This document shows positions 5,270-24,923 of a DNA stretch of 64,000 nucleotides, in pieces. The position numbers were made by a program, and so were the translations under genes. The DNA comes from Chaetoceros tenuissimus (lineage: Eukaryota > Bacillariophyta > Thalassiosirophyceae > Chaetocerotales > Chaetocerotaceae). The notes under the pieces are model-generated. The model did not search any database. It saw nothing but the letters and a program-made list of their open reading frames with translations, and was not told the origin of the DNA. The stretch lies in assembly GCA_021927905.1 (NCBI GenBank), contig BLLK01000045.1, positions 186,001 to 250,000 on the forward strand, given 5' to 3'. Numbering within the stretch: position 1 is the first letter of the stretch; every line of letters begins with the position of its first letter.

Positions 5270-6355
5270 ATGACAGACATTTGCGGCATTTGCAGTAGCC
5301 CAGTGGCGTGGTATAATCGTATGGAGCAGCCATGCAAAAAACATGTGTTCCACAGAGATTGTTTCACCAAACGACTCGAGTCTACAACCCTTTCCATTGA
5401 AATGTTCCGCTGTCCTTCTTGCCCTGGACAAGCTTCAGCACAAAGAAGTAGAGGAGGAAATCCATCTTCAAGCTTTTATGAGGATGTAAAGTGGACCAAA
5501 GCTCGAGGAACTCGCCATCCATTTCCAAATCAGTTTAATTCCTTTGCTGCATCTCAAAATGGAATTGGGAGCAACCAATTCCGTCATGAGTTTCAAGAGG
5601 GCAATCGCCAAGCACATGCAGCGGAACATATGAACTCTTTCTACATGAATCAGGGGATGTATCATCCAAGTCCAGACTCTGTAATTCAATTCAACGATCT
5701 AACCAGAGCTGTCAAATCGTTGTCTGAGGAAAACCAACGTCTTTACTCCTTATTGCATCAGAGTGTACAAGAAAAGGAGAGAATTCATCAGTCACATGAT
5801 GAATTCATCAAGTCCTTTAGAGGAAGAAAGACTCAGCAGTTTGATGGCTTTGAAACTCCCAGTGAGGGAATGGAATGTGACTTTGAAGAGGATGTCAAGA
5901 TTGCAACCAGTAGTAGTAGTAGTAGCAGCAGTAGCGATGTTGAGGAGGTCAAGACTGCTTCTACCAGATCTACCCGAAAGGCTTCCAACGCCAAGACCTC
6001 TTCCAAGACTTCGTCCTCCTCCAAGGTCAATCTGGAATGCATCAAAGGTCCACACAAGGGTCAGTCCTTCCTTCTTACCAAAACTCTCATCCTTGGGAAG
6101 GGTGGAACTTGGAAAGAGCCAGTCGCTGACCTCTCACAAGATCTTTACGTATGTCCTAATCATGCCAAGCTGACCTTGGTGAAGAAAGGTCCAAAGTCAA
6201 AGCAGGTCCTCATGGTCGAAGTTGTTGATTTGAAGTCTAAGAATGGTACCAAAGTGAAGAACAAGAAGCTTGTTGGATCTACAAAGAGAATGGCGTTCGT
6301 GAACGACACCATCACTGTTGGTAGCTCTGTCCTTCTAATTTCAAAAACGAAGTAG
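5270..6355 (+). CDS. RING finger plus FHA domain protein (putative E3 ubiquitin ligase)
   Basis: Single exon. I start it at 5270, immediately before the RING, giving 361 residues. An in-frame ATG at 5153 would add 39 residues that look like 5' leader. Residues 4-50 form a RING-type zinc site (CGIC, then PCKKHVFHRDC, then CPSC). The middle is Gln/Asn-rich with a short coiled-coil stretch (SLSEENQRLYSLL), then a Ser run encoded by AGT/AGC repeats (about 5909-5935) and a Lys/Ser/Thr-rich linker. The C-terminal hundred residues look like an FHA phosphothreonine-binding domain: LILGKGG, NHAKLTL and KNGTKVKN. The usual FHA arginine (GR) is replaced by GK here. RING with FHA suggests phospho-directed ubiquitination as in CHFR or RNF8, but the order is reversed, so orthology is not claimed. 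Confidence 0.75.
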   Translation: MTDICGICSSPVAWYNRMEQPCKKHVFHRDCFTKRLESTTLSIEMFRCPSCPGQASAQRSRGGNPSSSFYEDVKWTKARGTRHPFPNQFNSFAASQNGIGSNQFRHEFQEGNRQAHAAEHMNSFYMNQGMYHPSPDSVIQFNDLTRAVKSLSEENQRLYSLLHQSVQEKERIHQSHDEFIKSFRGRKTQQFDGFETPSEGMECDFEEDVKIATSSSSSSSSSDVEEVKTASTRSTRKASNAKTSSKTSSSSKVNLECIKGPHKGQSFLLTKTLILGKGGTWKEPVADLSQDLYVCPNHAKLTLVKKGPKSKQVLMVEVVDLKSKNGTKVKNKKLVGSTKRMAFVNDTITVGSSVLLISKTK

Positions 6356-6528
6356 TGGAAAAATTGAAAGACGACCATATACCATATGTGCATACTATTG
6401 TCATGTGCCTCACCAATTATGGGTTGTAAAAAGGGATACGAGAATTGAAAATGTAGAGAAGTAAAATGTGCAAACTGAATTCTAATTGACCCCTTTTATT
6501 ATACCTACCTTCTATTTAGTTTTTTAAT

Positions 6529-7944
6529 TCAGCCCCCAGTAAGAGAAAGATTTGACAGCTGACTTTTGATCTGTTCCATCTTCCTTCTACGATCGGTATT
6601 TTTACTGTTTCTCTTTTTCATTTTTGAAGATGTTTGTGTCTTTCGGCAATCAGCAGACGCAACTGTGTTTTCCATTTCCTGTTTTTGGTGCTCCCTTACA
6701 ATCTTTGCCTGTTTGAATTTCATGTACAATTATTATAAAAACGTTTGAATGATGTTATGAAAGCATGACAATCACAAGCTTACCAAGTTTTGGGCAGCAT
6801 TTCGGTATCGATCACACTCTGCAGAGATGTAACTCTTTTCGGATATCTCCTTGTTCAAATTCATTTCCAATTCCACTACTTTAGTTTTCAAAGTTTTTAT
6901 CTCGTTTTCAAACTTTCCTGTATCTGATGATTCATACCTCTTCTTCTCAGTCTGCAAGTTAGTTTCAAGTTTCAAACATTTTGCCTGCGAATCTTGAAGA
7001 TCCACTTGGAATGATTTTAGCTTGGATTGAACCATTTGCGTTTTACTCGCCTTTGAGTAGACAACATTAGATTGTGACAGATTTATTTAGGAAACAATAA
7101 TAAAGACTTGTCCACTTACTTCTGCCTCAACCAATCGCTTTGATTCTGCAATTTCTCTCTCAAATTCACTTGCCTTGGTCTCCAATTGTCTTTTAAATTC
7201 CCGTTCCTTCACTTCTATATCACGCAACGACTTCTTCAATCGAGACTCTAGTGTTTTGTATTCTGTTTTGCAAATATCCAGTGTCTTTTTATGTTCTTCT
7301 GCTTGATGAAGGATCTGCTGCTCCAAGTATGCTCGTACCTTTCTTTCTTTGGACTTGAGGTGCTTTCTAAATTTATGTTCCTCCTGTTCGCGATATGATT
7401 TCCAATCATGTTGCTTCCGTTCCAAATCCAATCTTGCAGCATTCAGTTGTTTCAAGACTACCTGTACTTGCCGAATGTCATTTTCGGCATGAATTGGTAT
7501 AGATTGTAGCATTTGATTCATGCTCTTTGTTTCTATTGAAGTCTCGGGGACTTTATTCTTGTCCAAGGCTTGATTATTTGAGGTAGTTAAAGGTTCCATA
7601 GAGAGGTTGATACTAGGTTTTTCTCTGCAAAAGTCAAAAGAGGTCTCTTTTAATTTGAGTTGAGCATCCACATGGGTAATTCCCTTTGCAAGAAATGAAT
7701 CAATATCAACTTCAACAGACCCTATTATCCTTTCCACGGTACAAACAAAGAGCACCAAGACGGAACCTTCACTCCAAATAAGCTCAGTACTATGAGGGAC
7801 AAATGTAGTACTCGAATTGAACTTGCAAGTCTGGATTACCTCATTGTTATATTCGAATGAGAGCCATATTGATTCAAACTTTCCGAAAACCTTTTCGAAT
7901 TGATTTATAGTTCGAATGCGAATAATGAATTTATTGGAAGTCAT
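6529..7944 (-). CDS. CEP120-like centriolar coiled-coil protein
   Basis: Three exons on the minus strand: 7120-7944, 6784-7050, 6529-6708; 423 residues, all junctions phase 0. The N-terminal 110 residues look like a beta-rich C2-type domain. From about residue 155 to the end it is charged coiled coil. The block LESRLKKSLRDIEVKEREF, then ENEIKTLKTKVVELEMNL and the final VREHQKQEME order follow the C-terminal third of CEP120, a centriole-elongation protein. It is less than half the length of animal CEP120, so only one C2 domain and the coiled coil appear kept. Coiled coils match many proteins, so the name is provisional. A centriolar role fits an organism with flagellated gametes. Confidence 0.6.
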
Positions 7945-20390: not shown

Positions 20391-20861
20391 TCAAAATATC
20401 TTCTTCATACCATTTCCAAATTCAAAACCAAAATCATAGTCTTTTTGGGAAACATGTCGTAAAATCTCATATGCTGAACTAAGGACAGTTCCCCACAGGC
20501 TCATGCTTGCTATCCTTGGAAATGTGCCTTTGAAGAATCCCTTCACACCTGCACTAGAATATAATTGACGCGCAATATTCGCATATGTAATTTTTTGTTG
20601 TAATTGAATTTGTGACATATTTTGAGAAGGCAGGACCGGTGCAATACTGGCAACTTGAACTCTAGTTTTCACTACATCCAATGGCTGAGTTGTTGTTGCA
20701 GCCACAACAGCTGCAGTTACCCCAGAAACTACTTGCGTAAATCCTCGCACATAAATATCTTGCATTTCAAATCCTTCCTGGTGTAATTTATTTTGAACGC
20801 AATGTTGCATTCCACTATAGACAAGAGAATAAAAAGATGGTGGTGCAAATGAAGGGCAACC
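20391..20861 (-). CDS. mitochondrial carrier, C-terminal part (SLC25A44-like), detached
   Basis: The final third of a mitochondrial carrier. After SFYSLVYSGMQ (from 20837) come the fifth and sixth membrane helices with the third carrier signature QPLDVVKTRVQV (PxDxxKTR) and the C-terminal GFFKGTFPRIASMSLWGT. It is the missing end of the part at 24357-24923: residue order and length against SLC25A44-type carriers fit if the two are joined directly at GGAAC/ATCTTT. In the reading frame a TAG at 20864-20862 blocks further extension, and the only nearby acceptor (TTTAG ending at 20862) gives the wrong phase. I read this as the 3' half of an interrupted gene. Confidence 0.7.
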   Translation of the reverse strand, partial: GCPSFAPPSFYSLVYSGMQHCVQNKLHQEGFEMQDIYVRGFTQVVSGVTAAVVAATTTQPLDVVKTRVQVASIAPVLPSQNMSQIQLQQKITYANIARQLYSSAGVKGFFKGTFPRIASMSLWGTVLSSAYEILRHVSQKDYDFGFEFGNGMKKIF

Positions 20862-21149
20862 CTAAAGGAAGTTGAACCTTGACTTACTGCTACTGCCACT
20901 TCAGTTGCTATGCATATCATAGCTTATTGCCATCACTTATTGCTGTGACCGAGTAAAGTGCATTACAAGTCTAGACTCTATTTCTTCAGCAACGGTGACA
21001 AGATAGTATTAGCAATGACAAAAGATAGTGTTAGTGATGGTGACTGGTATGAGTGAATAGAGAGCATCACAAATAAGAGAGAAATGCAAGCATGTCAGCA
21101 TTGAAAATAACAGCAAAGGAAACTCAATATAAGTATGATGTTATTAGTT
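20862..21149. other. right flank of the inserted segment
   Basis: Non-coding, between the orphan gene stop and the detached carrier end. No terminal inverted repeat partner of the other end (near 24360) was found by eye. Confidence 0.35.
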
Positions 21150-22538
21150 CTATTTTAGGCCAAGTTTCTTCTTATCGATTGTCTTGAGTAATTGGACTTT
21201 TTGATTTGTGAATTTTGTTTGTTCCTCTGCCATGTCTTCTTTTTCTGGCACAATAGCTCCAAGACTATCTAATAGTTCATACTTTTCTTTGGACGATAGA
21301 CCATTGAAATGTTTTGTAGCTCGTTCAAAAAAACTTAGAAATTCGATTTGAAGTTCGGTCTCTTCAGATGGTGGCTGTGGATCTTGGACTATTGTTCGTC
21401 GATATGGATACTTTCCATGCCTGAGAGAATATTTATATCTTCTAGAGATCGCATCCATTTGGGTCCTTGAAGTCCGAGAAAAACCTGACTTGGAAATGTA
21501 AATAATTCCGATGTATTTATTCAAATCTTCGTTTGAACCTTGTAACTGGAATCGAGTGTGAAAAGAGCAGTCGATGTTATGAACGGGTGCTATTCCATTA
21601 TACTCCATGAAAGTCACCATTGCCAAGCAACAATTTGGATTATGCGAGAATTGAGATAATGTTGCAGGGACTCTGAATGAATACCAAAACCTCATATCAC
21701 TTTTGGTTTTTTGATATTGAAAAAAGAAGTTATATCCACCTTTTCCATTTTCCTCAATCTCAACACAATTCAAAATAGTATGCGGTAGCTTCACATTACG
21801 AAGTACTTCCCCAGACTCATCTTTAATATCGTCGATAAATGTTGCAAGTTCATTCTCACCTACAGTCACGTTTTCAACTTTCTTCAAAAAGTGAGGTGTG
21901 TAGGATTGACTTTCTTCTCTTAACATGTGCTTCGACAGATTCGGTGCTTTTGCCATTAATGTTACTGCATTGAACAATTCAGTAACATGTTCCTCATTAC
22001 CCGGAGAAACAAGTATTGATGCTGATGTACTTACAAACGATTCTGCGTTAAGGACACGAGTGTTTCCATTTCGGAGATTCAATTGTACTTGATGTTGAAG
22101 AGACACAAGCTTGCGTTCTTCGATTGAATCAATGATGCGTCTTGCACCTTGTACATCACCATTTTCTAGATTCTCTAATGCCTTGTTGAGAAAGGTCGCA
22201 AATACTTCCATGAAAACAATTGGACAACCAGTGGCCTCATCAATTTCTCCTGTTGGGATACCCCCTGTATTTACATCACACGTGTGTATCATGTAACAAT
22301 TATGCTTACTGTCTAATCCGGATGTGTTGAAATCATATACCGCCTTCAATAAGGCAAGAATAGCACCCGGTGGATAGGTATTCCAACTTTTTGCATTCAA
22401 TTGTTTAATGATTCCATCAAAAGTGTTTCGAATGGATTGAGGTAGAGCAGCATGATCAGGGTTGGTAATGACTGGCATTTTTACCCGTGCATATTCATTT
22501 GGTAGTTTTTTATCAACAGTTGGGTTAGCATGATTCAT
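21150..22538 (-). CDS. orphan 462-residue protein inside the split carrier gene
   Basis: Single exon without introns, ATG at 22538. No family recognised. Visible features: a soluble, mixed alpha/beta composition; a conserved-looking CDVNTGGIPTGEIDEATGCP segment near residue 90; NKYIGIIYISKSGFSRTSRT near 345 followed by a basic patch (SRRYKYSLRHGKYPYRR) that could bind nucleic acid; and a Lys/Glu-rich C-terminal helix. There is no signal peptide or membrane span. Its position within the interrupted carrier, beside the four-repeat gene, suggests it belongs to the inserted cassette. It shows no DDE, HUH, tyrosine or serine recombinase motif that I can identify. Confidence 0.65.
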   Translation of the reverse strand: MNHANPTVDKKLPNEYARVKMPVITNPDHAALPQSIRNTFDGIIKQLNAKSWNTYPPGAILALLKAVYDFNTSGLDSKHNCYMIHTCDVNTGGIPTGEIDEATGCPIVFMEVFATFLNKALENLENGDVQGARRIIDSIEERKLVSLQHQVQLNLRNGNTRVLNAESFVSTSASILVSPGNEEHVTELFNAVTLMAKAPNLSKHMLREESQSYTPHFLKKVENVTVGENELATFIDDIKDESGEVLRNVKLPHTILNCVEIEENGKGGYNFFFQYQKTKSDMRFWYSFRVPATLSQFSHNPNCCLAMVTFMEYNGIAPVHNIDCSFHTRFQLQGSNEDLNKYIGIIYISKSGFSRTSRTQMDAISRRYKYSLRHGKYPYRRTIVQDPQPPSEETELQIEFLSFFERATKHFNGLSSKEKYELLDSLGAIVPEKEDMAEEQTKFTNQKVQLLKTIDKKKLGLK

Positions 22539-22913
22539 GTTTCTTCATTCGTTGTTTCTTTTGGATAGTATCGAATGGAAGAATTGGAAATGATTTTGGA
22601 TTGGCATTGGCAGTCGAAGTGGTTTAGTCACATTTTCAAATTTAGAATTTAATAAATGGCCTCTATAAATCTTGGTGTGTGACTGTTATAACTGTAGATC
22701 AATACACAATGTCTGCATTCGAGAAACACATTTTAACGAATGTTTAAACAATCATAGAAATTGTGTTAGATATACTAGGTATTATCCAAAGGTTCTGTAG
22801 ACTTGCTTGATTATTATTTACTTGACAAAATCATACCCCAAATGTTTCTAGTCATGTATCTAATCTCTGCTTGACGAACTGTCATTTGTGCAACCTTTTT
22901 TGACTCACAAAAT
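22539..22913. other. spacer between the two cassette genes
   Basis: About 375 bp upstream of the orphan gene. AT-rich, no coding signal seen. Confidence 0.35.
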
Positions 22914-24346
22914 TTACGCTACTGTGTTTTCCCTTTTCAATTCTTTTCTGACCGTGTACAATTTGTTTTTGATCATTGAATCATTCTTATCACGAAGGAT
23001 TCCTGTATCAGTACGGAGCTCTGCTACCACATCGTCACATTTCAACGTTACATCGTTTTCATCCTTCCAATTACGCTCATTCAGTTCTCTGACAATATGG
23101 CGAATATGCTCAGTCGCTTCTGGATGCCATTCTTTTCTGAATCGTACGTCAATCCATCTACTATTCTGTTTGATTCTACACTTAATTTTTTCAAGTGTTT
23201 TGTCACCAAATAAAGGATTGTTAAAGATCTCGACTGCAAGCTGGTCAGCAGTATACAACTTCATTTCACCATTGGCATCTGGTTGCCTCCAGGCAGTTGT
23301 AGATCCGTTGTTTCGGAGAAATCTGATTCTATTTGCAAGGTGCTCGTTCTGGTCAGGATGCCATTCTGGAATAGTCACACGTTCGGTGTTGAGGGCACTA
23401 GCATTAGATGTATCTACTGACACCACTTCTGGGACAATGTCATTGGTATTGCTAGTTGAATCACTTGTGGTATCCTAAAATAAAATTAGTCAAACTTCAA
23501 ATGTAAACAATATTGTATGCATGAAGGAACTTACAATTGTAGTACCTGTTGCAACATTTTGTGATACTTCAATTTCTTTGCAAATTTTGTAGATTTTCTT
23601 ATGGATTTGGTTGAGATCTTTTTTTCGGAGTTCATGATCTTCTTCATGTAGTCTTGCCAAGTCTTTCTTTTGTACTAGGGTTCCTGACTTGTCTTTCCAT
23701 TCACAGTCAATCATATCAGATACAATGCGACGTATGTACTCGAGCTCTGGTTTAGACCATGTTGGTGTAGTATCTTCATCAATCCAAATTGATGACCGCT
23801 CAATCCTGTCATAGATTTGTTGCTTATTCTTGTCATCAAAGAACCCACTCTCTTTACACTCTAGCACCAAGTCATCCCAAGTAAATGCTACATTTTCCCC
23901 AAAAGCATTCGGTTTGGACCATTCCCGAGTTGGACCATTTCTCAATTCTTCTATTCTTGTCTTGAGAAAATCATCTTGATCTGGAGAAAAAAAAGTATAG
24001 GGTTCGGTACTGCTTTTCTCGTCTTCGGCTTTATTTTTTGCACGTTTTGTTCTTTTCTTTTTATTGTTCGCAGCTTTCTGCTCACTTGTACGAGTTCTCT
24101 TTTTATTGTTCGCAGCTTTCTGCTCACTTGTAAGAGTAGCTTTAGCACGAATTGCACCAGACTGTGAAATTCTAGTACCTGTATCAGAACACACTTGTCT
24201 GACACGTTTCTGACAAATTTGTTAGTGTATATTTTTAAATAAATTAATTGTAGCTATAAACTTACCATCACGTCATTAGGCACTTCGATATCAGATTCTT
24301 CTGATTCACCTGATTCATCTGATTCATCCGATTCACTATCAAGAAA
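22914..24346 (-). CDS. four-repeat basic protein, novel repeat family, inside the split carrier gene
   Basis: Exons 24266-about 24346, 23535-24209 and 22914-23474; junctions phase 0 with GT-AG introns of 56 and 60 bp. The 5' end is uncertain: exon 1 encodes an acidic SDESDESGESEESD tract open back to 24370 without an ATG until the last codon before the first intron. Exon 2 starts with a Lys/Arg-rich region holding a 14-residue tandem repeat (TSEQKAANNKKRTR). Then come four related units of 65-75 residues in an A-B-A-B order. A units: SPDQDDFLKTRIEELRNG and HPDQNEHLANRIRFLRNN, each ending in a Trp-Ile-Asp motif. B units: SKPELEYIRRIVSDM and HPEATEHIRHIVREL, then WKD and a final helix. Each looks tri-helical, in the manner of Myb/SANT DNA-binding domains, but I do not recognise the family. 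Confidence 0.6.
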
Positions 24347-24356
24347 TTGGTAGTGA

Positions 24357-24923
24357 TTACGTTCCTATTGGCAGGGATGAAAATAAACTCATTCCGAATC
24401 CTCGATAGAAGCCTCTAATTCCATCTTTTCTCAAAATGTCATTAATTACATACAAGGCACTACCTCGGCGAGAATGAGCTGGTTCATTCATTACCATTTG
24501 TCTTTGTGATACAACATCCATAGGAACTATCATACTTTGTGCTACTCCAGATGCAAATCCACCTGCTATGCTACCGCTGATTGATGCAATAATAGGTTGT
24601 TGTTCAATACTGAAATTTGATTTCTGAAGATACTTTTGTAAATAATCTTTGGAATGCTCCAATGTTCCAATGTAAATACCACGAGCTGGTACAGCCATTA
24701 CTAATACAATACCTAGTCCTCTATACATTCCTCGAATTCTTTGTGCAGAAGATTTATTCAGTTGTCTGACATTAGAATCGGAGAGTACTTGTTGTCTCGT
24801 CTTTAGTACATTGATTGGATGGAGCGCCATTGTAATTAGTGTATACATTCCAGTTCCAATTCCATAGAATCTAACTTTATCAATGTCATCCCATTGTATA
24901 CCATTACTTGAATTCTTTGGCAT
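24357..24923 (-). CDS. mitochondrial carrier, N-terminal part (SLC25A44-like), interrupted
   Basis: 188 residues from ATG 24923. It begins with the SLC25A44-type IQWDDIDKVRFYGIGTGMYT and the first carrier signature HPINVLKTRQQV, then RGMYRGLG, the second signature VPMDVVSQRQMV, and GIRGFYRGFGMSLFSSLPIG at the end of the fourth helix. There the homology stops at GGAAC (24361) and a TAA follows. The missing helices five and six lie about 3.5 kb downstream (20391-20861). SLC25A44 relatives carry branched-chain amino acids into mitochondria. As it stands the product would lack a third of the carrier and should not work unless an unusual splice restores it. Confidence 0.75.
   Translation of the reverse strand: MPKNSSNGIQWDDIDKVRFYGIGTGMYTLITMALHPINVLKTRQQVLSDSNVRQLNKSSAQRIRGMYRGLGIVLVMAVPARGIYIGTLEHSKDYLQKYLQKSNFSIEQQPIIASISGSIAGGFASGVAQSMIVPMDVVSQRQMVMNEPAHSRRGSALYVINDILRKDGIRGFYRGFGMSLFSSLPIGT

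Follow-up and report, generated by a model that had tools for sequence, protein, structure and literature searches.

In wheat and other plants, genes have been proposed to change position as filler DNA at repaired double-strand breaks (PMC3445842, in excerpt, citing Wicker et al. 2010 and 2011), and filler DNA in break repair has likewise been proposed as a route of intron gain (PMC3296678, in excerpt). A viral fragment, EVLF, has also been described in the nuclear genome of Chaetoceros tenuissimus (PMC8613185, in excerpt). Here, a locus of this small marine diatom is considered in which a gene for an SLC25A44-like mitochondrial carrier is interrupted by about 3.5 kb of DNA bearing two other genes. 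It lies in C32:186001-250000, the whole 64,000-nucleotide stretch that was analyzed and is called the window below, within a genome of 41.03 Mb in 68 contigs, to which the genome-wide searches apply. The insertion is real, was partly misread in a preliminary description of the window, and is best explained by an ordinary repair event. Its main parts are as follows.

24361 to 24923, minus strand: 5' part of the SLC25A44-like carrier gene, 563 bp, ending GGAAC within the PIGT... motif.
20391 to 20814, minus strand: 3' part of the carrier gene after the candidate splice, with its stop at 20391; carrier-derived DNA probably begins at 20820.
20821 to 24360, minus strand: inserted segment, about 3540 bp, with the left edge placed to within 2-3 bp and the right edge uncertain by a 5-bp overlap; delimited by the continuous C27 paralog and relatives and by a C54-like fragment that reaches 20816.

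The carrier starts at 24923 on the minus strand and is open down to GGAAC at 24361, the end point already given in the preliminary description, and later carrier sequence runs through to the stop at 20391. Both halves match the Pfam family Mito_carr (5e-24 and 1.1e-16), and the open reading frames (ORFs) between them bear out the earlier claim that two genes on the same strand separate the halves. Assignment to the SLC25A44-like class follows from the Mito_carr repeats together with homology to proteins named SLC25A44; the first named relative among the matches listed, P0013, is solute carrier family 25 protein 44 (51%). For comparison, the window carrier was aligned with 27 relatives picked from the best 120 of 392 found (alignment A1), in which the nearest relatives among the matches listed, P0003 and P0004, are 94% and 91% identical to it. 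Searched against the genome, the carrier gives eight matches: its own two halves on C32, a paralog on C27 (66%) and five carriers at 26-31%. None of the eight is a second allele. The C27 paralog is an intact open frame of 404 amino acids, matching over query positions 4-326.

The relatives and the C27 paralog are continuous across the insertion site, where they read PIG-x-[LF]WWGSYSGMQ. P0003 and P0004, available as predicted proteins only and not as DNA, have PIG-[LT]-[FL]WWGSYSGMQHC at this place. Compared at the DNA level, the C27 paralog reads CCAATAGGTGCTCTGTGGTGGGGTAGCTATAGTGGAATGC, where the window has CCAATAGGAAC, the insert, and then CTATAGTGGAATGC. By hand count, about 15 bp of the target, coding for part of this motif, is gone from the window relative to the C27 paralog and the relatives. 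The loss falls on conserved residues: among the matches listed, WW stands at the site in 26 of the 27 relatives in A1, and the W, W and Y columns are nearly invariant (90% or more). The remaining relative, P0006, reads FWF and then stops. This ORF of 196 amino acids differs from P0003 at 7 of 193 aligned columns and ends PIGSFWFIWKLQ at the position of the window's break; its end may stem from a frameshift or a separate lesion of this site, or from a sequence that is incomplete or misread. The preliminary description had placed the break after the first four helices, but it falls within a stretch that we take to be helix 4. A micro-exon holding the lost motif was looked for within the insert, and neither LWW, FWW nor IWW occurs in the six frames of 20701-24500; the two [LFI]WF strings found there are both on the plus strand, in unrelated context.

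GGAA and ATAG flank the insert on both sides. The C27 paralog, which has no insert, carries ATAGG on the left and TATAGTGGAATG on the right, so these tetranucleotides are native codons rather than a target-site duplication, and no such duplication is visible at the junctions. The right junction contains a scrap of a third gene.

20816 to 20952, minus strand: decayed antisense remnant of the gene at C54:800245-801342, aligning as two blocks that are separated by large deletions.
20816 to 20820, minus strand: CTATA, microhomology at the right junction, common to the C54-like fragment and the carrier (by eye).

The two blocks match the C54 ORF, antisense, at 47 of 52 and 60 of 75 alignment columns (genome-wide E 7.7e-11). 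The C54-like match finishes TCTATA and the carrier resumes CTATAGTGG, with 5 bases of overlap, such that carrier DNA picks up only at CTATAG (20820-20815). The restart at ATCTTT (20838) proposed earlier therefore lies inside the C54-like fragment, and the family-like G-T-S-F-Y-S join read across it is a product of chance, being the antisense of codons of the C54 gene; relatives read [LF]WWGSYSG. Homology to C54 was not found to extend past about 20952, the score for 20961-21160 being 36.5, whereas 200 shuffles averaged 38.5 and reached up to 65.5. The C54 protein matches a single place in the genome, its own. At that locus (L012, C54:796500-806000), the gene sits between two closely similar ORFs in opposite orientation (by eye), an inverted gene pair at 894-2057 on the minus strand and 5396-6982 on the plus strand of L012.

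The right junction thus has the short shared bases of microhomology-type end joining, and the site as a whole has the small target deletion (about 15 bp) without target-site duplication that goes with it. We consider it moderately probable that microhomology-type break repair introduced a fragment with genes on it and inactivated the carrier; the insertion and the loss are shown by comparison with the continuous genes, and break repair is our interpretation of the edges. A chromosome break in the carrier gene would have been repaired by end joining at the 5-bp microhomology CTATA, with a 3.54-kb genomic fragment joined in as filler. The fragment would have comprised a pair of lineage-restricted genes, of which one may have been cut at its 5' edge, and the scrap of the third, and about 15 bp of target would have been lost on joining.

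Whether splicing could rescue the carrier was considered by pairing GT donors in 24320-24440 with AG acceptors in 20780-20980. Only one of the 45 pairs, 24360/20815, gives an open in-frame product; the preliminary description, in which no in-phase splice was recognized, had missed it. The TTTAG acceptor which that description rejected is indeed not among the open pairs.

24359 to 24360, minus strand: candidate splice donor, AAC|GTAATC, weak, with T instead of G at +5.
20815 to 20816, minus strand: candidate splice acceptor, ...TCTTGTCTATAG|TGG, in phase with the donor and pyrimidine-rich.

The product would have 328 amino acids and read PIGT-GMQHC, without the seven residues LWWGSYS found in P0004. 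The WW..Y motif that follows P-x-G in SLC25A44-like proteins is thus absent both from the genomic frame of the window and from the sole in-frame spliced product, which makes loss or strong impairment the likelier outcome. Lacking the near-invariant [LF]WWGS codons, the carrier has most likely lost its function; at best, it would yield small amounts of a spliced protein with seven residues missing. The C27 paralog, being intact, may compensate. The earlier suggestion that an insertion destroys or conditions the carrier is accordingly supported by the continuous relatives and paralog and by the missing motif.

Several observations weigh against break repair with loss of the carrier. Copy-type filler repair would leave a donor, and the assembly yielded no donor copy of the two genes; the donor may have been lost or excised, or be missing from the assembly. 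End joining has been argued to be perhaps not a common route of intron gain in Drosophila, with little statistical support (PMC3296678, in excerpt). The carrier halves contain no stops or frameshifts, and residue changes private to the window number 11 in 327 columns, against 7 for P0003 and 16 for P0004. With no stops and no clear excess of private changes, either the insertion is recent or the carrier is still constrained; the state of the halves fits a young insertion, and continuing function is also compatible. Finally, an in-frame GT-AG pair lies at both junctions in just 3.2% of 2000 block-shuffled inserts.

The last two of these points speak for an alternative in which splicing removes the insert as a GT-AG intron of 3546 bp (24360 to 20815), with two same-strand genes nested in it, and the carrier functions although seven residues of helix 4 are missing. 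The sole open pair of the 45 falls on both junctions, has GT-AG ends that restore the frame, as expected of a spliceosomal intron, and includes a pyrimidine-rich acceptor. Such an intron would nonetheless cost the carrier the nearly invariant W, W and Y columns, and the donor GTAATC deviates from GTAAGT, the commonest donor in the window (28 among 369 mechanical intron candidates, many of them necessarily false). The two same-strand genes inside should also terminate transcription early, and when wider ranges are allowed, some in-frame pair occurs in 67% of 2000 block-shuffled inserts. A working giant intron is considered unlikely.

The two genes carried by the insert have the following structure.

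24266 to 24360, minus strand: gene 1, first exon or its remnant; open frame ERNHYQFLDSESDESDE...NDVM up to the insertion edge.
23535 to 24209, minus strand: gene 1, second exon; a lysine-rich part and the first copy of a repeat unit of about 150 amino acids.
22914 to 23474, minus strand: gene 1, third exon and stop; the other copy of the unit, with 35% identity between the two.
21150 to 22538, minus strand: gene 2, a single-exon ORF of 462 amino acids.

Gene 1 keeps two ordinary introns of 56 and 60 bp with GTAAGT donors, which speaks against a retrocopy. Its frame runs into the insertion edge with no start codon ahead of it, and the first exon holds a single Met, in its last codon. Its paralog on C14 also seems to start just before an intron, and gene 1 may be complete or cut. 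Each copy of the repeat unit consists of two halves rich in conserved W (by eye). Two local repeats occur within the gene: a 42-bp tandem duplication, 95% identical, at 24053-24136, which repeats TSEQKAANNKK, and about four copies of a 9-bp GATTCATCT-like repeat at 24294-24338, by the left insert edge, which encode an acidic DES run in the first exon.

Neither gene could be assigned to a family: nothing in Pfam or PHROG scored usably, and PDB sequences and viral contigs offered no explanation either. For gene 1, the matches to DUF6033 (E 0.0035) and NSF_ATPase_lid in exon 2 and to Pox_RNA_pol (E 0.074) in exon 3 fall below curated cut-offs where one exists and are taken as chance. For gene 2, no Pfam or PHROG match was listed; a profile compared with PDB sequences reached four designed armadillo repeats (best E 0.0029), with no stretch passing alone, and is likewise set aside. 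A profile search of 5.77 billion proteins, run for gene 2 only and in which relatives must share short exact words, returned only gene 2 itself, P0002 and the C14 copy, the last two being 35% and 34% identical to it in alignment A2. A viral or bacterial origin of the insert genes is not indicated, no relative having been found in viral contigs (genes 1 and 2) or genome contigs (gene 2 only), in scans that reach only sequences sharing the chosen peptide patterns.

Genes 1 and 2 each match one other place in the genome, on C14, where the two lie about 2.4 kb apart and diverge. Adjacency of both distant paralogs makes the pair an old association, but the pair in the window did not arise recently by copying from C14. 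Around the C14 copies (L019 and L020, C14:1602000-1619500) there are a histone H3-like ORF (L019:3514-3924, by eye) and other unassigned ORFs, including one of 375 amino acids (L019:4612-5739) that looks Ulp1-protease-like by eye, a resemblance supported by no Pfam family.

The C14 pair could also be taken to indicate that an undescribed element moves genes 1 and 2 together, with the two as its cargo or its machinery. The chance of adjacency within 4 kb is about 2 in 10,000 (8 kb of 41 Mb), and the missing donor is what cut-and-paste movement would leave. Against this, the relative orientation of the genes on C14 differs, and no near-identical copy turned up in the genome: a DNA search of the 41 Mb, which skips simple repeats and very common words, found no second copy of the 3.5-kb unit, the only DNA matches of the insert being itself and the C54 scrap. 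Among the repeats listed (12 nt or longer; 20 of the 24 direct families and 25 of the 34 inverted pairs), none joins the two insert edges. No family of recombinases or transposases reached a curated cut-off; the PHROG replication initiation protein matched by gene 1 (phrog_9474, E 0.02) and Integrase_DNA, matched by the C14 paralog of gene 1 (E 0.61), are below threshold and taken as chance. The edges themselves show target deletion and microhomology. Movement by such an element is considered quite improbable, and the undescribed mobile cassette of the preliminary description is not supported by an insert with no visible target duplication, no edge repeat among those listed and no second copy found, and with target deletion, a 5-bp microhomology and a scrap of an unrelated gene at one end. 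The genome search for further copies and terminal repeats (12 nt or longer) proposed there came back empty on both, and only the adjacent C14 paralogs and the lack of a donor copy favor mobility. Highly improbable, in our estimate, is a combined view in which genes 1 and 2 are an unrecognized diatom pair that moves jointly and, with usable splice signals at its bounds, inserts into genes; it would then sit there as a giant gene-bearing intron, so that the host gene may survive.

An artefact of assembly or haplotype merging could also be hypothesized, with the insert belonging elsewhere or to one haplotype and the intact allele dropped. The published genome is a hybrid MaSuRCA assembly made haploid with HaploMerger2, at a heterozygosity of 1.56% (PMC8613185, in excerpt), and a heterozygous insertion is possible. 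A false join would need two separate errors in one gene with about 15 bp missing between them, and the authors report no huge insertion between haploid sequences, although 3.5 kb may not count as huge (PMC8613185, in excerpt). An artefact is considered very unlikely.

Altogether, break repair with filler DNA is the preferred account of a clean case in which a gene-bearing fragment lies inside another gene of a compact diatom genome. The sequence shows both what the insertion cost, a transporter motif, and how the gene might escape, through a single in-frame splice. Should it be spliced, the insert would represent a giant intron of recent date with genes nested in it, of use in asking where new introns come from. 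The locus also directs attention to a small pair of gene families not previously described.

No account of this insertion was met in the literature searched by chosen terms in titles and abstract openings, which is no proof of absence in print. Among known systems, EVLF is likewise an inserted fragment in a nuclear genome, very probably of the same species; as described in the excerpted PMC8613185, it is flanked by a target duplication of the long interspersed nuclear element (LINE) type, whereas the present insert has no duplication and no viral relative was found for it. The intron gain proposed for filler DNA (PMC3296678, in excerpt) resembles this locus in that inserted DNA happens to have usable GT and AG bounds; here, however, the insert is 3.5 kb long with two genes, its splicing is a candidate only, and seven host residues would be lost. 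As in the filler-DNA gene movement of plants (PMC3445842, in excerpt), genes here lie at a new place on a genomic fragment that bears no transposon hallmarks; the locus differs in its exon target, in the lack of a donor copy found and in belonging to a diatom.

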